The notes under the pieces: generated by a model
What the model was told of the DNA's origin: nothing
The model's input: the letters and a program-made list of their open reading frames with translations, nothing else
Databases searched by the model: none
Made by a program: the position numbers and the translations under genes
Shown: in pieces, positions 10,789-27,477 of the stretch
Numbering within the stretch: position 1 is the first letter of the stretch
Layout of the letters: every line of letters begins with the position of its first letter
DNA from: Acidobacteriota bacterium
GTDB lineage: Bacteria; Acidobacteriota; Polarisedimenticolia; Gp22-AA2
Reading direction: 5' to 3'
NCBI GenBank assembly: GCA_003223145.1
Contig: QHXY01000070.1
Span: 1-32,081, forward strand
DNA: 32,081 nucleotides

Positions 10789-11178
10789 GTGGCACGCATC
10801 GCCGGTGTGGATTTGCCCCAGAACAAGCGAATCGAGATCGCGCTGACCTACATCTACGGGATCGGCCGATCGCGCAGCAGCCGCATCCTCGGGAAGGCGC
10901 AGGTGAAGAAGGACGTCAAGGTGAAGGATCTGGGTGAGGACGAAGCGCGTCGGATCCGCGACGTCATCCAGGAGGAAGGGCAGGTGGAGGGAGACCTCCG
11001 CAAGAACGTCCAGATGGACATCAAGCGGCTGATCGACATCGGCTGCTACCGGGGGATGCGGCACCGCCGCAACCTGCCGGTGCGGGGGCAGAGGACGCAC
11101 ACCAACGCGCGCACCCGCAAGGGCCCGCGCAAGACCGTTGCCGGCAAGAAGAAGGCTCCGGTCGGCAAGAAGGGATGA
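10789..11178 (+). CDS. rpsM: 30S ribosomal protein S13
   Basis: S13 sits in the 30S head and makes bridges to the 50S subunit. The 129-aa product starts from GTG at 10789 ([19 protein letters not shown]). It contains the helix-two-turn-helix [15 protein letters not shown] and the C-terminal block [19 protein letters not shown] then [18 protein letters not shown]. The length is a few residues over the usual 118-126, through a basic tail. AAGGAGA is seven bases upstream of the start. Confidence 0.97.
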
Positions 11179-11193
11179 GGGTAAAGGAGATCC

Positions 11194-11748
11194 ATGGCTG
11201 AGCCGAAGGAACCGAAGGAAGGCGCCGCGAAAGAGGGCGCCCCGAAAGCCGAGAGGCCGCCGAAGGCGGCCAGGAAGGCCGACGCGAAGGAAGGGGCGGC
11301 TCCCCCCGCGAAGGAGGCCGCCGCCAAGGAGGCGCCGGCCGCCGCCGCGGAAGGGGCTCCGGCCGCCCGCCGTGCGCCGGGCAAGAAGAAGGAGAAGAAG
11401 AACGTGCCGTTCGCCATCGCCAACGTGCACGCGAGTTTCAACAACACGGTGATCAGCATCACGGATCAGGCGGGCAACGTGCTGTCCTGGTCGTCGGCGG
11501 GGTGCATCGGCTTCAAGGGATCCCGCAAGGGCACGCCGTTCGCCGCCCAGCTGGCGGCACAGGCGGCGGGGAACGCCGCCAAGGAGCACGGCGTGCGGCA
11601 GGTCGAGGTGCGCGTCAAGGGCCCGGGCGCGGGCCGCGAGTCCTCCATCCGCGCGATGCAGGCGATCGGCCTCGAGGTCAAGGCGATCAAGGACATCACG
11701 CCGATCCCCCACAACGGCTGCCGCCCCCCGAAGCGCCGGCGCGTCTGA
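11194..11748 (+). CDS. rpsK: 30S ribosomal protein S11 with N-terminal extension
   Basis: S11 is a platform protein of the 30S subunit. The core, from about residue 67, has [34 protein letters not shown] and the C-terminal [17 protein letters not shown]. The usual protein is about 129 aa. This one has 184 because of about 65 Ala/Lys/Glu/Pro residues at the N-terminus. The start is well supported by AAAGGAGA 4-9 bases upstream of ATG 11194. No later ATG with comparable ribosome binding site is visible near the core. The extension is low-complexity with mixed charge. Confidence 0.95.
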
Positions 11749-11763
11749 GAGGAGAGCAAGGGA

Positions 11764-12360
11764 ATGGCCAAGACACGTGGTTCGGTCTGCCGGCTGTGCC
11801 GCCGCGAGGGGCTCAAGCTGTTCCTGAAAGGGACCCGCTGCTACACGGAGAAGTGCGCCATCGAGCGGCGCAATTTCGCGCCCGGCCAGCACGGCAAGAG
11901 GCGCGTCAAGCTGCAGGGGTACGGCGTGCAGCTGCGGGAGAAACAGAAGGTCAAGAGGCTGTACCGGGTCCTCGAGAAGCAGTTCCGGCGGGCCTTCCAG
12001 GAAGCCAGCCGCAAGAAGGGCGTGACCGGCGAGCTCCTCCTTGTCAACCTGGAGCGGCGCCTGGACAACGTCGTCTATCGCCTCGGCTTCGCCTCGTCGC
12101 GGGCCCAGGCCCGCCAGCTCGTGGCGCACGGGCACGTGCGTGTCGGCGGGCGCAGGGTGGACGTGCCGTCGTACCTGGTGCGGCCGGGCCAGGTGATCAC
12201 GCTGCGTCCGAAGCTGGAGAAGCACGATGCCGTGCTCGCTTCGTTCGAGCAGGCGCGGGCACGCGGCTTCCCGCAGTGGCTGGCGGTGGACGCCGCGCAG
12301 ATCAAAGGCACCGTGGCTTCGCTGCCCCGCCGCGAGGAATGCCGATCCAGGAACAGCTGA
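11764..12360 (+). CDS. rpsD: 30S ribosomal protein S4, zinc type, apparent C-terminal frameshift
   Basis: S4 nucleates 30S assembly and, in E. coli, represses the alpha operon. The 198-aa frame has four N-terminal cysteines (9, 12, 26, 31) as in zinc-binding S4. It also has the block [11 protein letters not shown] and an S4 RNA-binding domain [20 protein letters not shown]. After LPRREE it ends abnormally with CRSRNS. The expected C-terminus, [13 protein letters not shown], is encoded in the -1/+2 frame from 12339 and stops at 12383. One extra base near 12338 would restore a 206-aa protein, exactly a normal S4 length. This is either a sequencing/assembly indel or a real frameshift. Confidence 0.93.
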
Positions 12361-12383
12361 TCGTCGAGCTCTATAGCAAATAA
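12339..12383 (+). pseudogene. rpsD: Out-of-frame conserved C-terminus of S4
   Basis: Frame 3 encodes [14 protein letters not shown] and then TAA. This matches the S4 family C-terminus, and directly follows LPRREE of the main rpsD frame in a different frame. It has no independent function; it is the displaced tail of rpsD. Sequence context is GAGGAATGCC, where GAGGAAATGCC would be in frame. Confidence 0.88.
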
Positions 12384-12391
12384 ACGAACCG

Positions 12392-12409
12392 GATCGCCCG
12401 CGGGCGATC
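12392..12409 (+). promoter_or_regulatory. Perfect 18-bp palindrome between rpsD and rpoA
   Basis: GATCGCCCGCGGGCGATC is its own reverse complement. As RNA it can fold into a 7-bp stem with a 4-base loop just upstream of the rpoA Shine-Dalgarno (GGAGGAAGG). There is no T-run, so a terminator is unlikely. It may be a translational control or processing hairpin; S4 autoregulation of this operon is known in other bacteria but not by this structure. Function is inferred. Confidence 0.45.
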
Positions 12410-12427
12410 GTCTGGAGGAAGGACCCG

Positions 12428-13408
12428 ATGCTGTGGAAAGGTTTCCAAAGGCCCAAGCGGCTTGAGTGCGATCTGGAGTCCCTGACCCCGACCTACGGGA
12501 AGTTCTACGCCCAGCCTTTCGAGCGGGGTTTCGGGACCACGATCGGCAATGCCATGCGGCGGGTCCTGCTGTCCTCGATCGAGGGGGCCGCGATCACCGC
12601 GGTGAAGATCGAAGGGGTGCTGCACGAGTTCACCTCGATCCCGGGCGTGGTGGAGGACACGATCGATCTGATTCTCAACCTCAAGCAGATCCCGCTGAAG
12701 CTGAACGTGAACCATGCCGAAACCATCTACCTGCGGGCCGAGGGTGCCGGCGAAATCAAGGCCGGCAACATCGAGACCAATCCGAACGTCGAGATCCTCG
12801 ACCCGGAGGTGCACATCGCCACCCTCAGCGAAGAGGGTCGCCTGAGCCTGGAGATGCGGGTCAAGCCGGGGCGGGGCTACGTGCCGGCCGACCGCAACTT
12901 CGACACCGACCTGTCCATCGGGTTCATCCCGATCGATTCGCTCCACTCCCCGGTGAAAAAGGTCAATTACACGGTGGAGGACGCGCGGCTGGGCCAGACC
13001 ACCGATTATGACAAGCTGACGGTCGAGGTCTGGACCAACGGCGCGGTGCAGCCGCAGAACGCGGTTGCCCTGGCGAGCAAGCTCCTGAAGGACCACCTGT
13101 CCATCTTCATCAATTTCGAAGAAACGCCCGAGATGGACGAGGAAGAGGTCGATCGTGAGAAGGACCGGATGCGCGAGAACCTGATGCGCTCGATCGAAGA
13201 GCTGGAGCTGTCGGTGCGGTCGTACAACTGCCTGAAGAACGCCGACATCAAGACGATCGCGGACCTCGTTCAGCGCACCGAGGCCGAGATGCTCAAGACG
13301 AAGAATTTCGGCCGCAAGTCCCTGAACGAGATCAAGGAGCTCCTGGCCGAGATGGGCCTGTCGCTGGGGATGAAGATCGACCACCTCCTGAAGCCGAAGG
13401 AGGAGTAG
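12428..13408 (+). CDS. rpoA: DNA-directed RNA polymerase subunit alpha
   Basis: Alpha dimerises to nucleate RNA polymerase assembly. The 326-aa product has the N-terminal domain (about 1-230), with [20 protein letters not shown], then [17 protein letters not shown], and [20 protein letters not shown]. An acidic linker ([17 protein letters not shown]) leads to the C-terminal domain (about 253-320), with [20 protein letters not shown] and [15 protein letters not shown]. The length is typical. It sits in the alpha operon between rpsD and rplQ, 7 bp before rplQ. Confidence 0.98.
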
Positions 13409-19673: not shown

Positions 19674-20855
19674 GTGAGCCGCCCGGCGATGCTTCTGGTG
19701 GATCACGACGAGGCCTCGCGCCTGCAGCTCAAGGAGCGCATCGCCGCCATCTGCCCGCCCGGCATGGAGGTCCTGGTCGCGCGATCGGCCGAGGAGGGCC
19801 TCGGCATCCTGTACTCCCTGCGCGAGCAGCACAGGACGATCGAGCTGGTGATCGCCATGCAGGGTATGCCCGGCATACCGGGCGGCCGCTTCCTGGAGAT
19901 CGTCAACGCCCAGTTCGCCGGGGTCGGCAAGATCCTGCTCTCCGGCAAACCCAGCCTGGACGAGGCGATCTACGCCATCAACAACGCCGGTCTCGACAAG
20001 TACATCCCCACGCCGTGGGACCCGGAGGACGTCAAGTTCACCATCACCGCCCTCCTGCGCCAGCGGGAGATGAAGCTCCTGAACGAGAAGCTGCTATCCG
20101 ACCTGCAGGTGCGCAACCAGCAGCTGACGTCGGCGCTGGGCAATCTCGAGCAGGCGCGCCACGACCTGGAGGGCTCGTACATCCAGACGGTCGAATCGCT
20201 GGCCATCGCCCTGGAGGCGAAGGACCGCTACACGGCGGGCCACTCGCAGCGCGTCGCCAAGTTCGCGCGCCTGATCGCGCGCTCCCTGGGAATGCCCCAG
20301 GGGGAGGTGGATATCGTCGGGCAGGTCGCGCTGCTGCACGACATCGGAAAGATCGGCATGCTGGACAAGATCCTGAACAAGCCGGCGAACCTGACGCCGG
20401 AGGAGCGCGAGGCGATCAAGACCCACCCCGTCGTCGGCGCCCAGATCCTGGCGCCGGTCGCGACCTTCTCCAAGCACGTGGAGGGCATCAAGCACCATCA
20501 CGAGATGTTCGACGGCACCGGCTACCCCGGGCGCCTCAAGGGGACCGACATCCCCCTGTCGGCGCGCATCGTCTGCCTGGCCGACGCCTTCGACGCCATG
20601 ACCTCGACGCGTCCCTATCGCGTCGGCCTGCCACTGGAGTTCGCCATCCAGGAGATGCAGAAGATGTCGGGGCGGCAGTTCTGTCCCGACTGCGTCGAGG
20701 CCTTCGTCCGGGTCCTGCAGTCGACGGCCGGCGCCGGCGAACTGGCGGCCTCGGCGCCGGCCGCGCCACCCGTCCCGCGGGCGACGGACGAAGGCGAAGG
20801 CCAGGCATCCCATGACGACGCCGAGCCCCGCGTCCAACTCCCCACCGGGACCTGA
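19674..20855 (+). CDS. REC-HD-GYP protein with degenerate receiver (gene A)
   Basis: HD-GYP domains are c-di-GMP phosphodiesterases. Residues 1-125 form a receiver-like domain. It keeps Asp10 and Asp12 in VDHDE and Ser90 in ILLSG, but the phosphoacceptor position in IELVIAMQGMPGIPG holds Met62, and the conserved Lys before Pro-Trp is Thr113 (YIPTPWD). A coiled coil (about 125-165) leads to the HD-GYP domain (about 166-345): GHSQRV, LLHDIGKIG, KHHHEMFDGTGYPGRLKG, LADAFDAMT. All metal ligands look present. The C-terminus has FCPDC. The GTG start follows GGGAGA. Residues 226-393 are identical to the end of the chimeric gene at 22367. The 393-aa protein probably senses by means other than phosphorylation. 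Confidence 0.9.
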   Translation: MSRPAMLLVDHDEASRLQLKERIAAICPPGMEVLVARSAEEGLGILYSLREQHRTIELVIAMQGMPGIPGGRFLEIVNAQFAGVGKILLSGKPSLDEAIYAINNAGLDKYIPTPWDPEDVKFTITALLRQREMKLLNEKLLSDLQVRNQQLTSALGNLEQARHDLEGSYIQTVESLAIALEAKDRYTAGHSQRVAKFARLIARSLGMPQGEVDIVGQVALLHDIGKIGMLDKILNKPANLTPEEREAIKTHPVVGAQILAPVATFSKHVEGIKHHHEMFDGTGYPGRLKGTDIPLSARIVCLADAFDAMTSTRPYRVGLPLEFAIQEMQKMSGRQFCPDCVEAFVRVLQSTAGAGELAASAPAAPPVPRATDEGEGQASHDDAEPRVQLPTGT

Positions 20856-20897
20856 AAGCTCCGTCCCACCGGAAAAACGCCAACAGACCCGAGCGAC

Positions 20898-20926
20898 TTG
20901 ACAGCGGACGGCCTGTGACTTATGAT
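20898..20926 (+). promoter_or_regulatory. Sigma70-type promoter before RHH-nadA (copy 1)
   Basis: TTGACA (20898-20903), a 17-bp spacer and TATGAT (20921-20926) are near-consensus. The region is strikingly AT-rich for this genome. Expected start is near 20933, about 50 bases before the RHH ATG. Confidence 0.75.
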
Positions 20927-20950
20927 GTTATTCGTAAAATATACATAAGT
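20918..20950 (+). promoter_or_regulatory. Inverted repeat overlapping the RHH promoter (putative operator, copy 1)
   Basis: ACTTATG (20918-20924) and CATAAGT (20944-20950) are perfect 7-bp arms. The left arm overlaps the -10 box and the arms flank the predicted start site. A further CTTATAT in minus orientation is at 20952-20958. Placement suggests repression by a DNA-binding protein, plausibly the RHH protein encoded just downstream. That link is inference. Confidence 0.5.
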
Positions 20951-20982
20951 TATATAAGAAGATCCTGACGCAGGAGTAACGC

Positions 20983-21198
20983 ATGCCCGTGTACAAGAAA
21001 ATCCGCACGTTCACCGCGACGGACCAGGAGCTGGACATGCTGGAGACGGTCGCGCGCTACCACGGCTTCTCGAAAAGCGCGACGATCACCAGCCTGATCA
21101 AGAAGGAGTTCTGGAGGGTGTTCCCGGCAGGGACCCGCGCCATCAGGCCCGATCGCGGGGCGCGCGTGTTCGACCGGGGCGCCGACCGGGGAGAGTGA
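20983..21198 (+). CDS. Small ribbon-helix-helix (CopG/Arc-like) protein, copy 1
   Basis: The 71-aa product looks like a ribbon-helix-helix DNA-binding protein. A basic N-terminal strand (YKKIRTFTATDQEL) is followed by helix 1 (LDMLETVARYHG), a turn at FSKSATI, and helix 2 (TSLIKKEFWRVFP). The last 20 residues are Arg/Asp/Gly rich. The start is firm: AGGAG lies six bases before ATG 20983. Its stop is 1 bp before the nadA ATG, so the two are surely co-transcribed. The promoter carries an inverted repeat, as expected for an autoregulator. Function as a NAD-biosynthesis regulator is a guess from context; an antitoxin-type or general RHH regulator is also possible, but no toxin partner is seen. 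The protein is identical to copy 2. Confidence 0.7.
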   Translation: MPVYKKIRTFTATDQELDMLETVARYHGFSKSATITSLIKKEFWRVFPAGTRAIRPDRGARVFDRGADRGE

Positions 21199-21199
21199 C

Positions 21200-22216
21200 A
21201 TGAGCGGCGTCGGGAGCGTCGGGGAGATCGTCACGATCGCGGCAGCATCGGTCCCGGAGCTCTGGCGGGTGGCCGACCCGAGGGAGGCGACCCGTCGAAT
21301 CGGACAGATCCGGGCTCTGGCGACGGCCCGGAATGCCGTTTTGCTGGCGCACAACTACCAGCTGCCGGAAGTTCAGGAGGCGGCCGACTTCGTGGGCGAT
21401 TCCCTAGGGCTTTCTCTCGAGGCGCAAAAAACCGGCGCGGACGTCATCGTCTTCTGCGGCGTCCACTTCATGGCCGAATCGGCCAAGATCCTCAACCCCG
21501 GGAAGACCGTCCTCCTTCCGAACCTGTCGGCCGGCTGCGCCCTGGCCGACTCGATCACGCCCGAGTCGCTGCTCAAGTGGAAGGAGCGCTACCCCGGGTA
21601 TCTCGTGGTCACTTACATCAACAGCAGTGCCGAGGTGAAGGCGCTGTCGGACATCTGCTGCACATCGGCGAACGCCGTCTCGGTCATCCGCAGCCTCCCG
21701 ACGGACAGGATCTTGTTCACGCCGGACCGCAATCTGGGTCGCTGGGTCGCGCGCCAGGTGCCGGAGAAGGACATCGTCATCTATGACGGGGCCTGCCCGA
21801 CGCATGACGTCCTGCGCGACGCCAGCGTCGAGAGGGTGAAGTCGGGGCACCCGGGCGCCGTCGTCATCGCGCACCCGGAGTGTCGCGAAGACGTCCTTCA
21901 AATGGCCGACGAGGTCTGCTCCACCTCCGGGATGGTGCAGGCGGTGCAGCGCCACCCTGAGGCGCGCACTTTCATCGTCGCCACCGAATGGGCCCTCATC
22001 CACCAGCTCAAGAAGCGCTTCCCGGACCGTGAGTTCATCCCGGCGGACGGCTGCATCGGCTGCCGGCTGCACTGTCCCTACATGAAAATGATCACTCTGG
22101 ACACAGTCCGGCGCGCCCTCCTGGAGAACGTTTTTGAAATCACCGTCGATGCGGAGGACGCCGCCCTGGCGCGGCGCGCCCTCGAGCGGATGATGGCGGT
22201 GCCGCGCGACCGTTGA
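21200..22216 (+). CDS. nadA: Quinolinate synthase NadA, copy 1
   Basis: NadA condenses iminoaspartate with dihydroxyacetone phosphate to quinolinate in de novo NAD synthesis, using a [4Fe-4S] cluster. The 338-aa product has LLAHNYQLPEVQEAADFVGD near the N-terminus. The three cluster cysteines fit the family: AGCALADS, CTSANAV with nearby CC, and the C-terminal GCIGCRLHCPYMKM. AHPECREDVL also belongs to the family. Other motifs are FCGVHFMAESAKIL and YINSSAEVKALSD. GGGGAGAG precedes the ATG. nadB and nadC are not in the window. The protein is identical to copy 2, with one silent base change at 21406. Confidence 0.95.
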   Translation: MSGVGSVGEIVTIAAASVPELWRVADPREATRRIGQIRALATARNAVLLAHNYQLPEVQEAADFVGDSLGLSLEAQKTGADVIVFCGVHFMAESAKILNPGKTVLLPNLSAGCALADSITPESLLKWKERYPGYLVVTYINSSAEVKALSDICCTSANAVSVIRSLPTDRILFTPDRNLGRWVARQVPEKDIVIYDGACPTHDVLRDASVERVKSGHPGAVVIAHPECREDVLQMADEVCSTSGMVQAVQRHPEARTFIVATEWALIHQLKKRFPDREFIPADGCIGCRLHCPYMKMITLDTVRRALLENVFEITVDAEDAALARRALERMMAVPRDR

Positions 22217-22270
22217 AGGCAGGTCGGCCGCGGTTCCGCGAACGCAAAGGCTGCTTCGGCCCTTCCCGGG

Positions 22271-22300
22271 TTGACTCTCCGCTCCGGCGGTCCCTATAAT
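22271..22300 (+). promoter_or_regulatory. Sigma70-type promoter before the chimeric HD-GYP gene
   Basis: TTGACT (22271-22276), an 18-bp spacer and TATAAT (22295-22300). Predicted start is near 22307, leaving a leader of about 60 bases. The TTG that the ORF track uses as a start codon is part of the -35 box. Confidence 0.75.
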
Positions 22301-22366
22301 CACTGCGCTCTTTGTCCTTCCGCGCGCCCGGCCACCGTCCACGAGGCAGGTGACTCCGGCTCCACG

Positions 22367-24208
22367 ATGACGCCCAACACCAGCCAGAAACTGAGCGACG
22401 CCGCCCGGCGCCCCACTCGCAAGATCGTCTACTGGTTCCTCCTGGTCCTCGCCGTCATGGGTCTTCTGCCGCTGGGCGTCTCCGCCTACAAGCTCATCAG
22501 CTACAGCCGCGAGGCGCTGGTCACCTCCCAGCAGGAAGTCCAGCTCCAGGTAGCGACGGCGGTGGCGCGTCAGCTCAACGCGGCGATCGAGGGAATCAAG
22601 ACGCAAATGGCCCGGCTGGGAGAGGCCGTCGCCGCGCTGCCGAAGGGATCGCCAGGTGGGGGCCGAGCCGTTCCCGATCGGGCCCTGATGGAGCGGCTGC
22701 TCGGGTCGGACCTGCTCCTGGTGCGCTACACGCCGCGCCAGGGCGAATCGATCGAGGCCCGCCAGCCGGGGTTCCCGCGCTCCGCGGTCGAAGCCGTGAT
22801 CCGCGAAGGGGTGGGCGTGGCGATGCAGGGGGGGCAGGACGTGAGCGATCCGATCCCGCTGCAAACAGACCAGGGGCAGCACTCGGTGCTGGTGGTGACG
22901 GTGCCGGTCGGGGCCGCCGGAGCGTCCTCCGGCGCGCTCACCGGGGTGGTCGATTTCGCCTCCTACTGGGATCCGGTCGTGGGCGGCCGGCGGACCAGCT
23001 ATATCATTTACGCGCTCGACAGCCAGGGCCGTCTGTTCGCGTCGCAGGACGAAGACGGCATTCTGGGGCGCGGGGACCTCAAGACGTTCGGCGTGGTACG
23101 GGACTGCCTGCGGGCCGGAGGCCACTCGGCTCTGACCTCCGAGTACCTTCTGACGGTGGACGGCAAGCCGGTGCCGTACATCGCCTCGTGCGACACCACC
23201 GCGCAGGGCTGGAAGATCTTCGTCCAGCTCGAGAAGAAGCAGGCCTACGCCACGGTCAACCAGATGATCCAGACGACTCTGTTCTGGGCCGGTCTGGCGG
23301 TGGTCCTGGCGCTCGTCCTGGCGTACGCGCTGGCCGCCAACGTCACCCGGCCGATCAAGGCGCTGGCGGCGGGCACCGAGGCGTTCGCCAAGGGCCAGCT
23401 CGACCAGCGAGTCCGCGTGAAGAGCCGCAACGAGCTCGGGGCCCTGGCCGACACCTTCAACGCCATGGCCGACCAGCTGCAGAACTACATCCAGAGACTG
23501 AGCGCCGCCGTCTCCCTGAACAGCGAGCTGTTCATGGGCACGGTCAAGGCGCTGGCCGAGGCCATCGACGAGAAGGACCCGTACACGCGCGGGCACTCCG
23601 AGCGCGTCAACCAGTACGCCGTTCTGCTCGCCAAGCAGATGGGTCTCTCCAAGAAGGAGATCTACGAGGTGCACATCTCGTCGCTGTTCCACGACATCGG
23701 CAAGATCGGCATGCTGGACAAGATCCTGAACAAGCCGGCGAACCTGACGCCGGAGGAGCGCGAGGCGATCAAGACCCACCCCGTCGTCGGCGCCCAGATC
23801 CTGGCGCCGGTCGCGACCTTCTCCAAGCACGTGGAGGGCATCAAGCACCATCACGAGATGTTCGACGGCACCGGCTACCCCGGGCGCCTCAAGGGGACCG
23901 ACATCCCCCTGTCGGCGCGCATCGTCTGCCTGGCCGACGCCTTCGACGCCATGACCTCGACGCGTCCCTATCGCGTCGGCCTGCCACTGGAGTTCGCCAT
24001 CCAGGAGATGCAGAAGATGTCGGGGCGGCAGTTCTGTCCCGACTGCGTCGAGGCCTTCGTCCGGGTCCTGCAGTCGACGGCCGGCGCCGGCGAACTGGCG
24101 GCCTCGGCGCCGGCCGCGCCACCCGTCCCGCGGGCGACGGACGAAGGCGAAGGCCAGGCATCCCATGACGACGCCGAGCCCCGCGTCCAACTCCCCACCG
24201 GGACCTGA
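22367..24208 (+). CDS. Chimeric membrane HAMP-HD-GYP protein (B N-terminus fused to A C-terminus)
   Basis: The 613-aa product starts at ATG 22367 (MTPNTSQKLSDAARRP); the ORF-track TTG lies in the promoter. Layout: membrane segment about 19-41, a periplasmic sensor of about 260 aa (dCache-sized), second membrane segment about 303-325, HAMP about 325-378 (NVTRPIKALAAG ... ELGALADTFNAMADQL), then HD-GYP. Up to about residue 448 (FHDIGKIG) it matches gene B at 25720, with one Val/Ala change. From there it is identical to the last 168 residues of gene A. The join is in frame and at the equivalent point of the domain, and all HD-GYP motifs (GHSERV, HDIGKIG, HHHEMFDGTGYP) remain. It is probably an active c-di-GMP phosphodiesterase with new C-lobe properties. 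Confidence 0.9.
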   Translation: MTPNTSQKLSDAARRPTRKIVYWFLLVLAVMGLLPLGVSAYKLISYSREALVTSQQEVQLQVATAVARQLNAAIEGIKTQMARLGEAVAALPKGSPGGGRAVPDRALMERLLGSDLLLVRYTPRQGESIEARQPGFPRSAVEAVIREGVGVAMQGGQDVSDPIPLQTDQGQHSVLVVTVPVGAAGASSGALTGVVDFASYWDPVVGGRRTSYIIYALDSQGRLFASQDEDGILGRGDLKTFGVVRDCLRAGGHSALTSEYLLTVDGKPVPYIASCDTTAQGWKIFVQLEKKQAYATVNQMIQTTLFWAGLAVVLALVLAYALAANVTRPIKALAAGTEAFAKGQLDQRVRVKSRNELGALADTFNAMADQLQNYIQRLSAAVSLNSELFMGTVKALAEAIDEKDPYTRGHSERVNQYAVLLAKQMGLSKKEIYEVHISSLFHDIGKIGMLDKILNKPANLTPEEREAIKTHPVVGAQILAPVATFSKHVEGIKHHHEMFDGTGYPGRLKGTDIPLSARIVCLADAFDAMTSTRPYRVGLPLEFAIQEMQKMSGRQFCPDCVEAFVRVLQSTAGAGELAASAPAAPPVPRATDEGEGQASHDDAEPRVQLPTGT

Positions 24209-24250
24209 AAGCTCCGTCCCACCGGAAAAACGCCAACAGACCCGAGCGAC

Positions 24251-24279
24251 TTGACAGCGGACGGCCTGTGACTTATGAT
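24251..24279 (+). promoter_or_regulatory. Sigma70-type promoter before RHH-nadA (copy 2)
   Basis: This is an exact duplicate of the 20898-20926 promoter: TTGACA, 17 bp, TATGAT. It now lies 42 bp after the chimeric gene and drives the second RHH-nadA pair. Confidence 0.72.
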
Positions 24280-24303
24280 GTTATTCGTAAAATATACATA
24301 AGT
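24271..24303 (+). promoter_or_regulatory. Inverted repeat overlapping the RHH promoter (putative operator, copy 2)
   Basis: ACTTATG and CATAAGT arms are unchanged from copy 1. If the RHH protein binds here, both copies would be under the same feedback, so duplication may not double NadA output. Confidence 0.48.
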
Positions 24304-24335
24304 TATATAAGAAGATCCTGACGCAGGAGTAACGC

Positions 24336-24551
24336 ATGCCCGTGTACAAGAAAATCCGCACGTTCACCGCGACGGACCAGGAGCTGGACATGCTGGAGAC
24401 GGTCGCGCGCTACCACGGCTTCTCGAAAAGCGCGACGATCACCAGCCTGATCAAGAAGGAGTTCTGGAGGGTGTTCCCGGCAGGGACCCGCGCCATCAGG
24501 CCCGATCGCGGGGCGCGCGTGTTCGACCGGGGCGCCGACCGGGGAGAGTGA
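24336..24551 (+). CDS. Small ribbon-helix-helix (CopG/Arc-like) protein, copy 2
   Basis: The 71-aa product is identical to the one at 20983, with the same AGGAG ribosome binding site and the same 1-bp spacing to nadA. It lies inside copy 2 of the tandem duplication, downstream of the chimeric HD-GYP gene. No base difference from copy 1 was seen. The RHH assignment rests on the strand-helix-turn-helix pattern and small size, not on a search. Confidence 0.7.
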   Translation: MPVYKKIRTFTATDQELDMLETVARYHGFSKSATITSLIKKEFWRVFPAGTRAIRPDRGARVFDRGADRGE

Positions 24552-24552
24552 C

Positions 24553-25569
24553 ATGAGCGGCGTCGGGAGCGTCGGGGAGATCGTCACGATCGCGGCAGCA
24601 TCGGTCCCGGAGCTCTGGCGGGTGGCCGACCCGAGGGAGGCGACCCGTCGAATCGGACAGATCCGGGCTCTGGCGACGGCCCGGAATGCCGTTTTGCTGG
24701 CGCACAACTACCAGCTGCCGGAAGTTCAGGAGGCGGCCGACTTCGTGGGCGATTCCCTGGGGCTTTCTCTCGAGGCGCAAAAAACCGGCGCGGACGTCAT
24801 CGTCTTCTGCGGCGTCCACTTCATGGCCGAATCGGCCAAGATCCTCAACCCCGGGAAGACCGTCCTCCTTCCGAACCTGTCGGCCGGCTGCGCCCTGGCC
24901 GACTCGATCACGCCCGAGTCGCTGCTCAAGTGGAAGGAGCGCTACCCCGGGTATCTCGTGGTCACTTACATCAACAGCAGTGCCGAGGTGAAGGCGCTGT
25001 CGGACATCTGCTGCACATCGGCGAACGCCGTCTCGGTCATCCGCAGCCTCCCGACGGACAGGATCTTGTTCACGCCGGACCGCAATCTGGGTCGCTGGGT
25101 CGCGCGCCAGGTGCCGGAGAAGGACATCGTCATCTATGACGGGGCCTGCCCGACGCATGACGTCCTGCGCGACGCCAGCGTCGAGAGGGTGAAGTCGGGG
25201 CACCCGGGCGCCGTCGTCATCGCGCACCCGGAGTGTCGCGAAGACGTCCTTCAAATGGCCGACGAGGTCTGCTCCACCTCCGGGATGGTGCAGGCGGTGC
25301 AGCGCCACCCTGAGGCGCGCACTTTCATCGTCGCCACCGAATGGGCCCTCATCCACCAGCTCAAGAAGCGCTTCCCGGACCGTGAGTTCATCCCGGCGGA
25401 CGGCTGCATCGGCTGCCGGCTGCACTGTCCCTACATGAAAATGATCACTCTGGACACAGTCCGGCGCGCCCTCCTGGAGAACGTTTTTGAAATCACCGTC
25501 GATGCGGAGGACGCCGCCCTGGCGCGGCGCGCCCTCGAGCGGATGATGGCGGTGCCGCGCGACCGTTGA
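24553..25569 (+). CDS. nadA: Quinolinate synthase NadA, copy 2
   Basis: This 338-aa quinolinate synthase is protein-identical to copy 1, and all cluster and substrate motifs are conserved (AHNYQLPEVQEAAD, AGCALADS, GCIGCRLHCPYMKM). The one base change found (24759 G against A at 21406) is at a Leu third position. Two full nadA genes in tandem are unusual because one copy normally suffices. Both copies look functional, so either the duplication is very recent or there has been selection or gene conversion. Confidence 0.94.
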   Translation: MSGVGSVGEIVTIAAASVPELWRVADPREATRRIGQIRALATARNAVLLAHNYQLPEVQEAADFVGDSLGLSLEAQKTGADVIVFCGVHFMAESAKILNPGKTVLLPNLSAGCALADSITPESLLKWKERYPGYLVVTYINSSAEVKALSDICCTSANAVSVIRSLPTDRILFTPDRNLGRWVARQVPEKDIVIYDGACPTHDVLRDASVERVKSGHPGAVVIAHPECREDVLQMADEVCSTSGMVQAVQRHPEARTFIVATEWALIHQLKKRFPDREFIPADGCIGCRLHCPYMKMITLDTVRRALLENVFEITVDAEDAALARRALERMMAVPRDR

Positions 25570-25623
25570 AGGCAGGTCGGCCGCGGTTCCGCGAACGCAA
25601 AGGCTGCTTCGGCCCTTCCCGGG

Positions 25624-25653
25624 TTGACTCTCCGCTCCGGCGGTCCCTATAAT
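25624..25653 (+). promoter_or_regulatory. Sigma70-type promoter before gene B
   Basis: TTGACT (25624-25629), 18 bp, TATAAT (25648-25653), identical to the copy at 22271. It should drive the gene B - HAD phosphatase - unknown - lexA run. Confidence 0.75.
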
Positions 25654-25719
25654 CACTGCGCTCTTTGTCCTTCCGCGCGCCCGGCCACCGTCCACGAGGC
25701 AGGTGACTCCGGCTCCACG

Positions 25720-27477
25720 ATGACGCCCAACACCAGCCAGAAACTGAGCGACGCCGCCCGGCGCCCCACTCGCAAGATCGTCTACTGGTTCCTCCTGGTC
25801 CTCGCCGTCATGGGTCTTCTGCCGCTGGGCGTCTCCGCCTACAAGCTCATCAGCTACAGCCGCGAGGCGCTGGTCACCTCCCAGCAGGAAGTCCAGCTCC
25901 AGGTAGCGACGGCGGTGGCGCGTCAGCTCAACGCGGCGATCGAGGGAATCAAGACGCAAATGGCCCGGCTGGGAGAGGCCGTCGCCGCGCTGCCGAAGGG
26001 ATCGCCAGGTGGGGGCCGAGCCGTTCCCGATCGGGCCCTGATGGAGCGGCTGCTCGGGTCGGACCTGCTCCTGGTGCGCTACACGCCGCGCCAGGGCGAA
26101 TCGATCGAGGCCCGCCAGCCGGGGTTCCCGCGCTCCGCGGTCGAAGCCGTGATCCGCGAAGGGGTGGGCGTGGCGATGCAGGGGGGGCAGGACGTGAGCG
26201 ATCCGATCCCGCTGCAAACAGACCAGGGGCAGCACTCGGTGCTGGTGGTGACGGTGCCGGTCGGGGCCGCCGGAGCGTCCTCCGGCGCGCTCACCGGGGT
26301 GGTCGATTTCGCCTCCTACTGGGATCCGGTGGTGGGCGGCCGGCGGACCAGCTATATCATCTACGCGCTCGACAGCCAGGGCCGTCTGTTCGCGTCGCAG
26401 GACGAAGACGGCATTCTGGGGCGCGGGGACCTCAAGACGTTCGGCGTGGTACGGGACTGCCTGCGGGCCGGAGGCCACTCGGCTCTGACCTCCGAGTACC
26501 TTCTGACGGTGGACGGCAAGCCGGTGCCGTACATCGCCTCGTGCGACACCACCGCGCAGGGCTGGAAGATCTTCGTCCAGCTCGAGAAGAAGCAGGCCTA
26601 CGCCACGGTCAACCAGATGATCCAGACGACTCTGTTCTGGGCCGGTCTGGCGGTGGCCCTGGCGCTCGTCCTGGCGTACGCGCTGGCCGCCAACGTCACC
26701 CGGCCGATCAAGGCGCTGGCGGCGGGCACCGAGGCGTTCGCCAAGGGCCAGCTCGACCAGCGAGTCCGCGTGAAGAGCCGCAACGAGCTCGGGGCCCTGG
26801 CCGACACCTTCAACGCCATGGCCGACCAGCTGCAGAACTACATCCAGAGACTGAGCGCCGCCGTCTCCCTGAACAGCGAGCTGTTCATGGGCACGGTCAA
26901 GGCGCTGGCCGAGGCCATCGACGAGAAGGACCCGTACACGCGCGGGCACTCCGAGCGCGTCAACCAGTACGCCGTTCTGCTCGCCAAGCAGATGGGTCTC
27001 TCCAAGAAGGAGATCTACGAGGTGCACATCTCGTCGCTGTTCCACGACATCGGCAAGATCGGCATCGAAGACAAAATCCTCCGCAAGCCGGCGGCCCTGA
27101 CCGACGAGGAGTACACTGTGATGAAGCAGCATCCGAACAAGGGGTACCAGATGCTGTCGAAGATCCGGGCGATGAAGGACATCATCCCGGGGATCCGTTT
27201 CCACCACGAGCGCTGGGACGGAAGCGGCTACCCGATGGGGCTGAAGGCCGATCAGATCCCGCTGCCGGCGCGCATCGTGGCGGTGGCCGATGCCTTCGAC
27301 GCCATGACCACGAACCGGCCGTACCAGAAGGCCATGCCGTTCGAGAAGGCGATCGCGCGGCTGTTCGAGCTCAGCGAGCGCGCCTACGATCGACGAGTGG
27401 TGGCGGCGTTCTCGGAGGCCTACAAGGCGGGGGCCTTCAAGGAGCCCGCCAAGGCCGCGGCGTACCAGGAACTGTGA
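25720..27477 (+). CDS. Membrane HAMP-HD-GYP phosphodiesterase (intact gene B)
   Basis: This 585-aa protein is the intact form: membrane segment about 19-41, periplasmic region of about 260 aa, second membrane segment about 303-325, HAMP about 325-378, HD-GYP about 385-565. HD-GYP motifs: KDPYTRGHSERV, SLFHDIGKIGIEDKIL, RFHHERWDGSGYPMGLKA and VADAFDAMTTNRPYQ. The family function is c-di-GMP hydrolysis; the periplasmic part is probably a ligand sensor, but its ligand is unknown. I start at ATG 25720 because the upstream TTG is in the -35 box. The stop overlaps the HAD gene start by 4 bp (GTGA). The N-terminal 445 residues are duplicated in the chimera. Confidence 0.92.
   Translation: MTPNTSQKLSDAARRPTRKIVYWFLLVLAVMGLLPLGVSAYKLISYSREALVTSQQEVQLQVATAVARQLNAAIEGIKTQMARLGEAVAALPKGSPGGGRAVPDRALMERLLGSDLLLVRYTPRQGESIEARQPGFPRSAVEAVIREGVGVAMQGGQDVSDPIPLQTDQGQHSVLVVTVPVGAAGASSGALTGVVDFASYWDPVVGGRRTSYIIYALDSQGRLFASQDEDGILGRGDLKTFGVVRDCLRAGGHSALTSEYLLTVDGKPVPYIASCDTTAQGWKIFVQLEKKQAYATVNQMIQTTLFWAGLAVALALVLAYALAANVTRPIKALAAGTEAFAKGQLDQRVRVKSRNELGALADTFNAMADQLQNYIQRLSAAVSLNSELFMGTVKALAEAIDEKDPYTRGHSERVNQYAVLLAKQMGLSKKEIYEVHISSLFHDIGKIGIEDKILRKPAALTDEEYTVMKQHPNKGYQMLSKIRAMKDIIPGIRFHHERWDGSGYPMGLKADQIPLPARIVAVADAFDAMTTNRPYQKAMPFEKAIARLFELSERAYDRRVVAAFSEAYKAGAFKEPAKAAAYQEL

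Follow-up and report, generated by a model that had tools for sequence, protein, structure and literature searches.

A near-identical 3353-bp tandem repeat with a chimeric HD-GYP gene at its join in an acidobacterial draft genome

Genes and features of the locus

The stretch of DNA analyzed here (the window, 32,081 bp read on the forward strand) is contig C349 of a draft MAG of an Acidobacteriota bacterium, which comprises 3.86 Mb in 474 contigs and is 88% complete. It carries, all on the forward strand, the gene order A, small ORF, nadA, B-A chimera, small ORF, nadA, B, as described in the initial annotation. Gene A (19674-20855) encodes an intact HD-GYP protein of 393 aa (PF13487, E=3e-34) with orthologues in six relatives. 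Its N-terminus is weakly receiver-like, with a Response_reg match below the Pfam cut-off, and this receiver-like domain (19674-20040) seems to lack the phospho-acceptor aspartate: it reads VIAMQGMPG, the usual receiver sequence at the phospho-acceptor site being LLDIMMPG. Gene B (25720-27477, 585 aa), with orthologues in four relatives, is an intact membrane sensor HD-GYP protein that consists successively of a transmembrane segment (TM), a dCache-like sensor, a second TM, a HAMP domain and the HD-GYP domain. The chimeric gene (22367-24208, 613 aa) joins the N-terminal part of B to the C-terminal lobe of A.

Each nadA copy (21200-22216 and 24553-25569) is an open reading frame for quinolinate synthase, assigned on copy 1 by PF02445 (E=4e-116). 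It is preceded by a small ORF of 71 aa (20983-21198 and 24336-24551) that also lies upstream of nadA in eight relatives. A sigma-70-like promoter, TTGACA-17-TATGAT, stands before the small ORF at 20898-20926 and again at 24251-24279, in a position kept in relatives. Another sigma-70-like promoter, TTGACT-18-TATAAT, conserved in four relatives, precedes B at 25624-25653 and the chimera, which inherited it from B, at 22271-22300.

Extent and divergence of the repeat unit

Self-comparison of the window reveals two head-to-tail copies of a 3353-bp unit in the same orientation (20349-23701 and 23702-27054), at an offset of 3353 and with 99.88% identity; the match extends 11 bp past the unit (20349-23712 against 23702-27065). 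Offset and copy number are those given in the initial annotation, which had, however, called the repeat exact, while four mismatches separate the copies: 21406 A/G, 22978 C/G, 23008 T/C and 23304 T/C. One of these changes an amino acid, exchanging V for A in TM2 between the chimera and B, and the other three are synonymous. All four look derived on copy 1, one of them ambiguously. The copies share long identical stretches, one of 1057 bp and the longest of 1571 bp. A near-identical (99.9%) repeat of kilobase scale cannot be due to chance. The unit does not occur elsewhere in the 3.86-Mb draft genome, and searches for overlaps between contig ends returned none.

The join between the two paralogues

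The ends of the unit fall in a 23-bp homology found in A at 20337-20359 (CACGACATCGGAAAGATCGGCAT), at the chimera join at 23690-23712 and in B at 27043-27065 (CACGACATCGGCAAGATCGGCAT), in each case on the forward strand. The version at the join is of B type, with GGC, and the switch from B to A occurs within its last 11 bp; the present A has a private GGA. As a result, A and B now share 22 of the 23 bp, with 11 bp exact at the switch. Both the 22/23 match and an in-frame join at the equivalent domain position had been claimed from the first inspection and are confirmed here, the join lying within the codons for HDIGKIG. Since GGC is present in six of six A orthologues where the present A has GGA, the homology was probably 23/23 when the event happened; in two relatives (G003 and G005), the two genes have CACGACATCGGCAAGATCGGCAT in common without a mismatch. 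Homology between equivalent codons keeps the reading frame automatically, so that selection is not needed to account for an open frame. A join at the longest A/B homology was also considered and is ruled out, the longest match being an 18-bp stretch located elsewhere, inside a 58-bp segment at 20550/27256.

The chimeric gene and its predicted product

The chimera is a single ORF whose ATG at 22367 and upstream promoter are conserved in four relatives. The list of open reading frames had placed its start at a TTG at 22271, and that of B at 25624. These triplets belong to the -35 box of the promoter, and the conserved ATG codons at 22367 and 25720 yield the corrected lengths of 613 aa for the chimera and 585 aa for B. 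With both promoters duplicated, the chimera possesses the promoter of B, and its transcription would presumably follow that of B. Residues 1-448 come from B (447 of 448 identical) and include TM1, the dCache-like sensor, TM2, HAMP and the HD-GYP domain up to HDIGKIG, and the final 165 residues are the C-terminal lobe of A (165/165 identical). The sensor of B and of the chimera matches PF02743 below the cut-off, and a low-depth AF2 model matches dCache structures with E about 1e-6. AlphaFold2 models based on 12 sequences reach a mean pLDDT of 60.5 for the chimera and 49.9 for B, values too low to judge the folding of the hybrid domain.

The HD-GYP domain of the chimera is recognized by PF13487 (E=7.5e-36) and by matches to HD-GYP structures of the PDB. 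Ten of its residues, D404, H410, H442, D443, K446, H471, H495, H496, D524 and D527, show no variation among A, B, the chimera and the orthologues. In a correspondence established in this analysis through the PDB match, they align in order with D183, H189, H221, D222, K225, H250, H276, H277, D305 and D308 of PmGH, for which the catalytic and metal positions are described in PMC4159591. As judged from this alignment, the hybrid domain keeps every HD-GYP catalytic position common to both parents. The HD-GYP phosphodiesterases PmGH (4mcw) and PA4781 (4r8z) belong to the same domain family as A, B and the chimera, and metal-site positions are conserved among them. The equivalent of PmGH E185 is a tyrosine in all three proteins of the locus, which would fit a two-metal site and makes one like that of PA4781 more likely. 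The chimera is predicted to be made in cells and to work as a phosphodiesterase.

Gene order in related genomes

The single-copy order A, small ORF, nadA, B, which the initial annotation suggested looking for in related genomes, was found in four of them, namely G001 and G003 from the same genus and G005 and G006 from other genera of the same family; in each, a kdtA/lpxK-like gene precedes A. The order is not readable in G002 and G004, whose contigs stop shortly after A. Only in the present genome does a 200-bp probe spanning the join match over its entire length; the 11 other genomes of the order lack the chimeric join and give partial matches, confined to the side of one parent, A or B. The single-copy order in four relatives and the missing join in 11 genomes together indicate that the duplicated state is derived.

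Origin of the duplication

The explanation that we regard as probable is a real and recent tandem duplication in the present lineage through short-homology exchange between HD-GYP paralogues. Sister copies of the ancestral locus (A, small ORF, nadA, B) would have misaligned at the 23 bp that encode HDIGKIG, then identical in A and B, or a replication fork would have changed template there. The segment from the HD motif of A to that of B would thereby have been repeated, leaving between the intact parents a third gene made of the promoter, sensor, HAMP and N-terminal HD-GYP half of B and the C-terminal half of A. This would be the reciprocal, duplication-type product of an unequal exchange between paralogues, and we infer both its existence in cells and its formation in one step. 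The initial proposal of short-homology recombination between paralogous HD-GYP genes, with both parents kept, thus finds support in the single-copy order of the four relatives and in the absence of the join from the other genomes of the order. The chimera itself is most likely a by-product whose benefit is unproven.

A second recent tandem repeat in the same MAG bears on this question. In contig C36 (locus L246, G000:C36), a 1213-bp unit is present twice with three mismatches (10852-12064 and 12065-13277). The duplication fuses a transaldolase tail onto a propionyl-CoA-carboxylase-beta-like gene; the two parent genes are single-copy in four relatives, and the product of the fusion is a truncated carboxylase. 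The C36 join adjoins a match of 13 bp, and the switch itself falls 5 bp beyond that match. As the C36 parents are unrelated and the product is broken, duplication appears to proceed independently of paralogy or usefulness, which lowers the standing of a reading as gene birth. The second duplication points to a general duplication process, or else to a problem of assembly or strain mixture, rather than to selected gene birth.

The main competitor, less probable but still to be taken seriously, is an artefact of this latter kind. Two single-copy strains differing at a few sites may have been merged, left-hand pieces of one strain, which carry the derived alleles, being connected through the 23-mer to right-hand pieces of the other. 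Alternatively, the join may stem from a chimeric library molecule; in both cases the unit would have been walked twice. The MAG carries N gaps of 5-208 bp, which are typical of short-insert scaffolding, so that it is apparently a short-read assembly; short inserts are unable to phase identical stretches as long as those of 1057 and 1571 bp. The derived alleles, including the private GGA of A at the edge, all lie on the left part, and A and B would offer an exact 23-mer provided that the ancestral GGC persists in the other strain. In C36 the differences are likewise one-sided, three of three looking derived on one copy; if changes fell evenly, the joint probability for both duplications would be 0.125 x 0.25 = 0.03. 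The only full-length carboxylase copy of C36 contains an in-frame TAG, which makes a literal reading of the assembly doubtful. Furthermore, the other readable contigs sampled from this MAG, about 0.80 Mb in all, hold one additional kilobase-scale, near-identical tandem, that of C36, while no such tandem occurs in loci from other genomes totalling about 1.5 Mb, a comparison of small numbers in which some loci overlap. The caution about assembly voiced in the initial annotation is therefore stronger than it was stated, given a scaffolded MAG that looks short-read, stretches that cannot be phased and one-sided differences.

Several observations nevertheless speak against an artefact. A and B of this genome match exactly over only 11 bp, and a pure k-mer join (k of at least 21) would require GGC in a second strain; the join was therefore probably present in the reads. 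At C36, the homology measures only 13 bp and does not include the switch, so that k-mer overlap fails to explain the join there. Multi-k assemblers normally resolve a 23-bp repeat, assemblers seldom write a unit twice without junction reads, and a second, single-copy version of the locus is absent from the bin. A k-mer loop as the sole cause was considered separately and is not accepted outright, in view of the same 11-bp and 13-bp matches.

Two narrower forms of the real-duplication reading concern its maintenance. Retention through selection on the dose of nadA, or of the small ORF, with the chimera as a passenger, is unlikely: nadA is duplicated whole with its promoter within the unit, and C36 illustrates that a fusion of no use can be carried along by a duplication in this genome, but three of the four differences between copies are synonymous and the fourth is conservative, which gives no signal either way. 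Quite unlikely, too, is the wider view that a hybrid sensor phosphodiesterase has only just arisen by unequal exchange, is expressed and works, in a genome unusually prone to short-homology tandems where catalytic motifs would seed the rewiring of c-di-GMP input and output. Adaptive gene birth, which would take the gene birth of the initial annotation to mean a retained and useful new gene, with the pairing of the B sensor and the A catalytic half itself selected, is very improbable despite the open frame, own promoter and intact shared catalytic positions of the chimera, because in-frame joining is automatic at homologous codons, the same positions already exist in both parents, fusions arise without use, as the truncated carboxylase of C36 illustrates, and there is no sign of selection.

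Relation to known rearrangements

Unequal crossing-over between paralogues is a classic source of a tandem with a hybrid gene, as in the anti-Lepore haemoglobin duplication. The present structure is similarly a reciprocal product in which both parents are kept with an in-frame hybrid between them. It differs in involving bacterial HD-GYP genes, a 3.35-kb unit with other genes inside, and an exchange at about 23 bp instead of long homology. In Pseudomonas fluorescens, as reported through PMC10333796, a diguanylate cyclase underwent a spontaneous domain fusion (Farr, Remigi and Rainey 2017) that likewise re-wired a c-di-GMP enzyme to a membrane part in a single rearrangement; according to that account it was a deletion with an observed phenotype, while here a duplication that keeps the parents is known from sequence. 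Bacterial gene fusions by deletion are well documented (PMC12803068; for M. tuberculosis, PMC7671302) and likewise create a new gene from parts of two genes, but they lose the intervening DNA that is duplicated in the present case. No fusion of HD-GYP genes by tandem duplication appeared among the titles and abstracts that a literature search listed.

The type of event is thus already known, and the present case adds its duplication-type counterpart between HD-GYP paralogues. If real, the locus offers a clean natural example of what short-homology exchange between paralogues yields in bacteria when it duplicates: neither parent is lost, and conserved catalytic codons determine where the exchange takes place. 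Further recombination of the RecA type between the two 3.35-kb copies should return the locus to its ancestral order or amplify the unit. For such structures in short-read metagenome assemblies, a check of the reads is needed before gene birth is called.

The small ORF upstream of nadA

The 71-aa ORF had been labelled RHH in the initial annotation, but it has no Pfam match even at E<=1, ribbon-helix-helix included, and the label is thus without Pfam support. The ORF is also adjacent to nadA in four genomes of a second family (L151-L154), where the stretch examined around the pair contains no match to A or B. Between its promoter and the ORF itself lies an AT-rich inverted repeat of the type TATATAA..TTATATA (20926-20983 and 24279-24336), which also precedes the small ORF in G001, G003, G005 and G006. 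This inverted repeat is a candidate operator for a regulator of NAD synthesis that the 71-aa ORF may encode.
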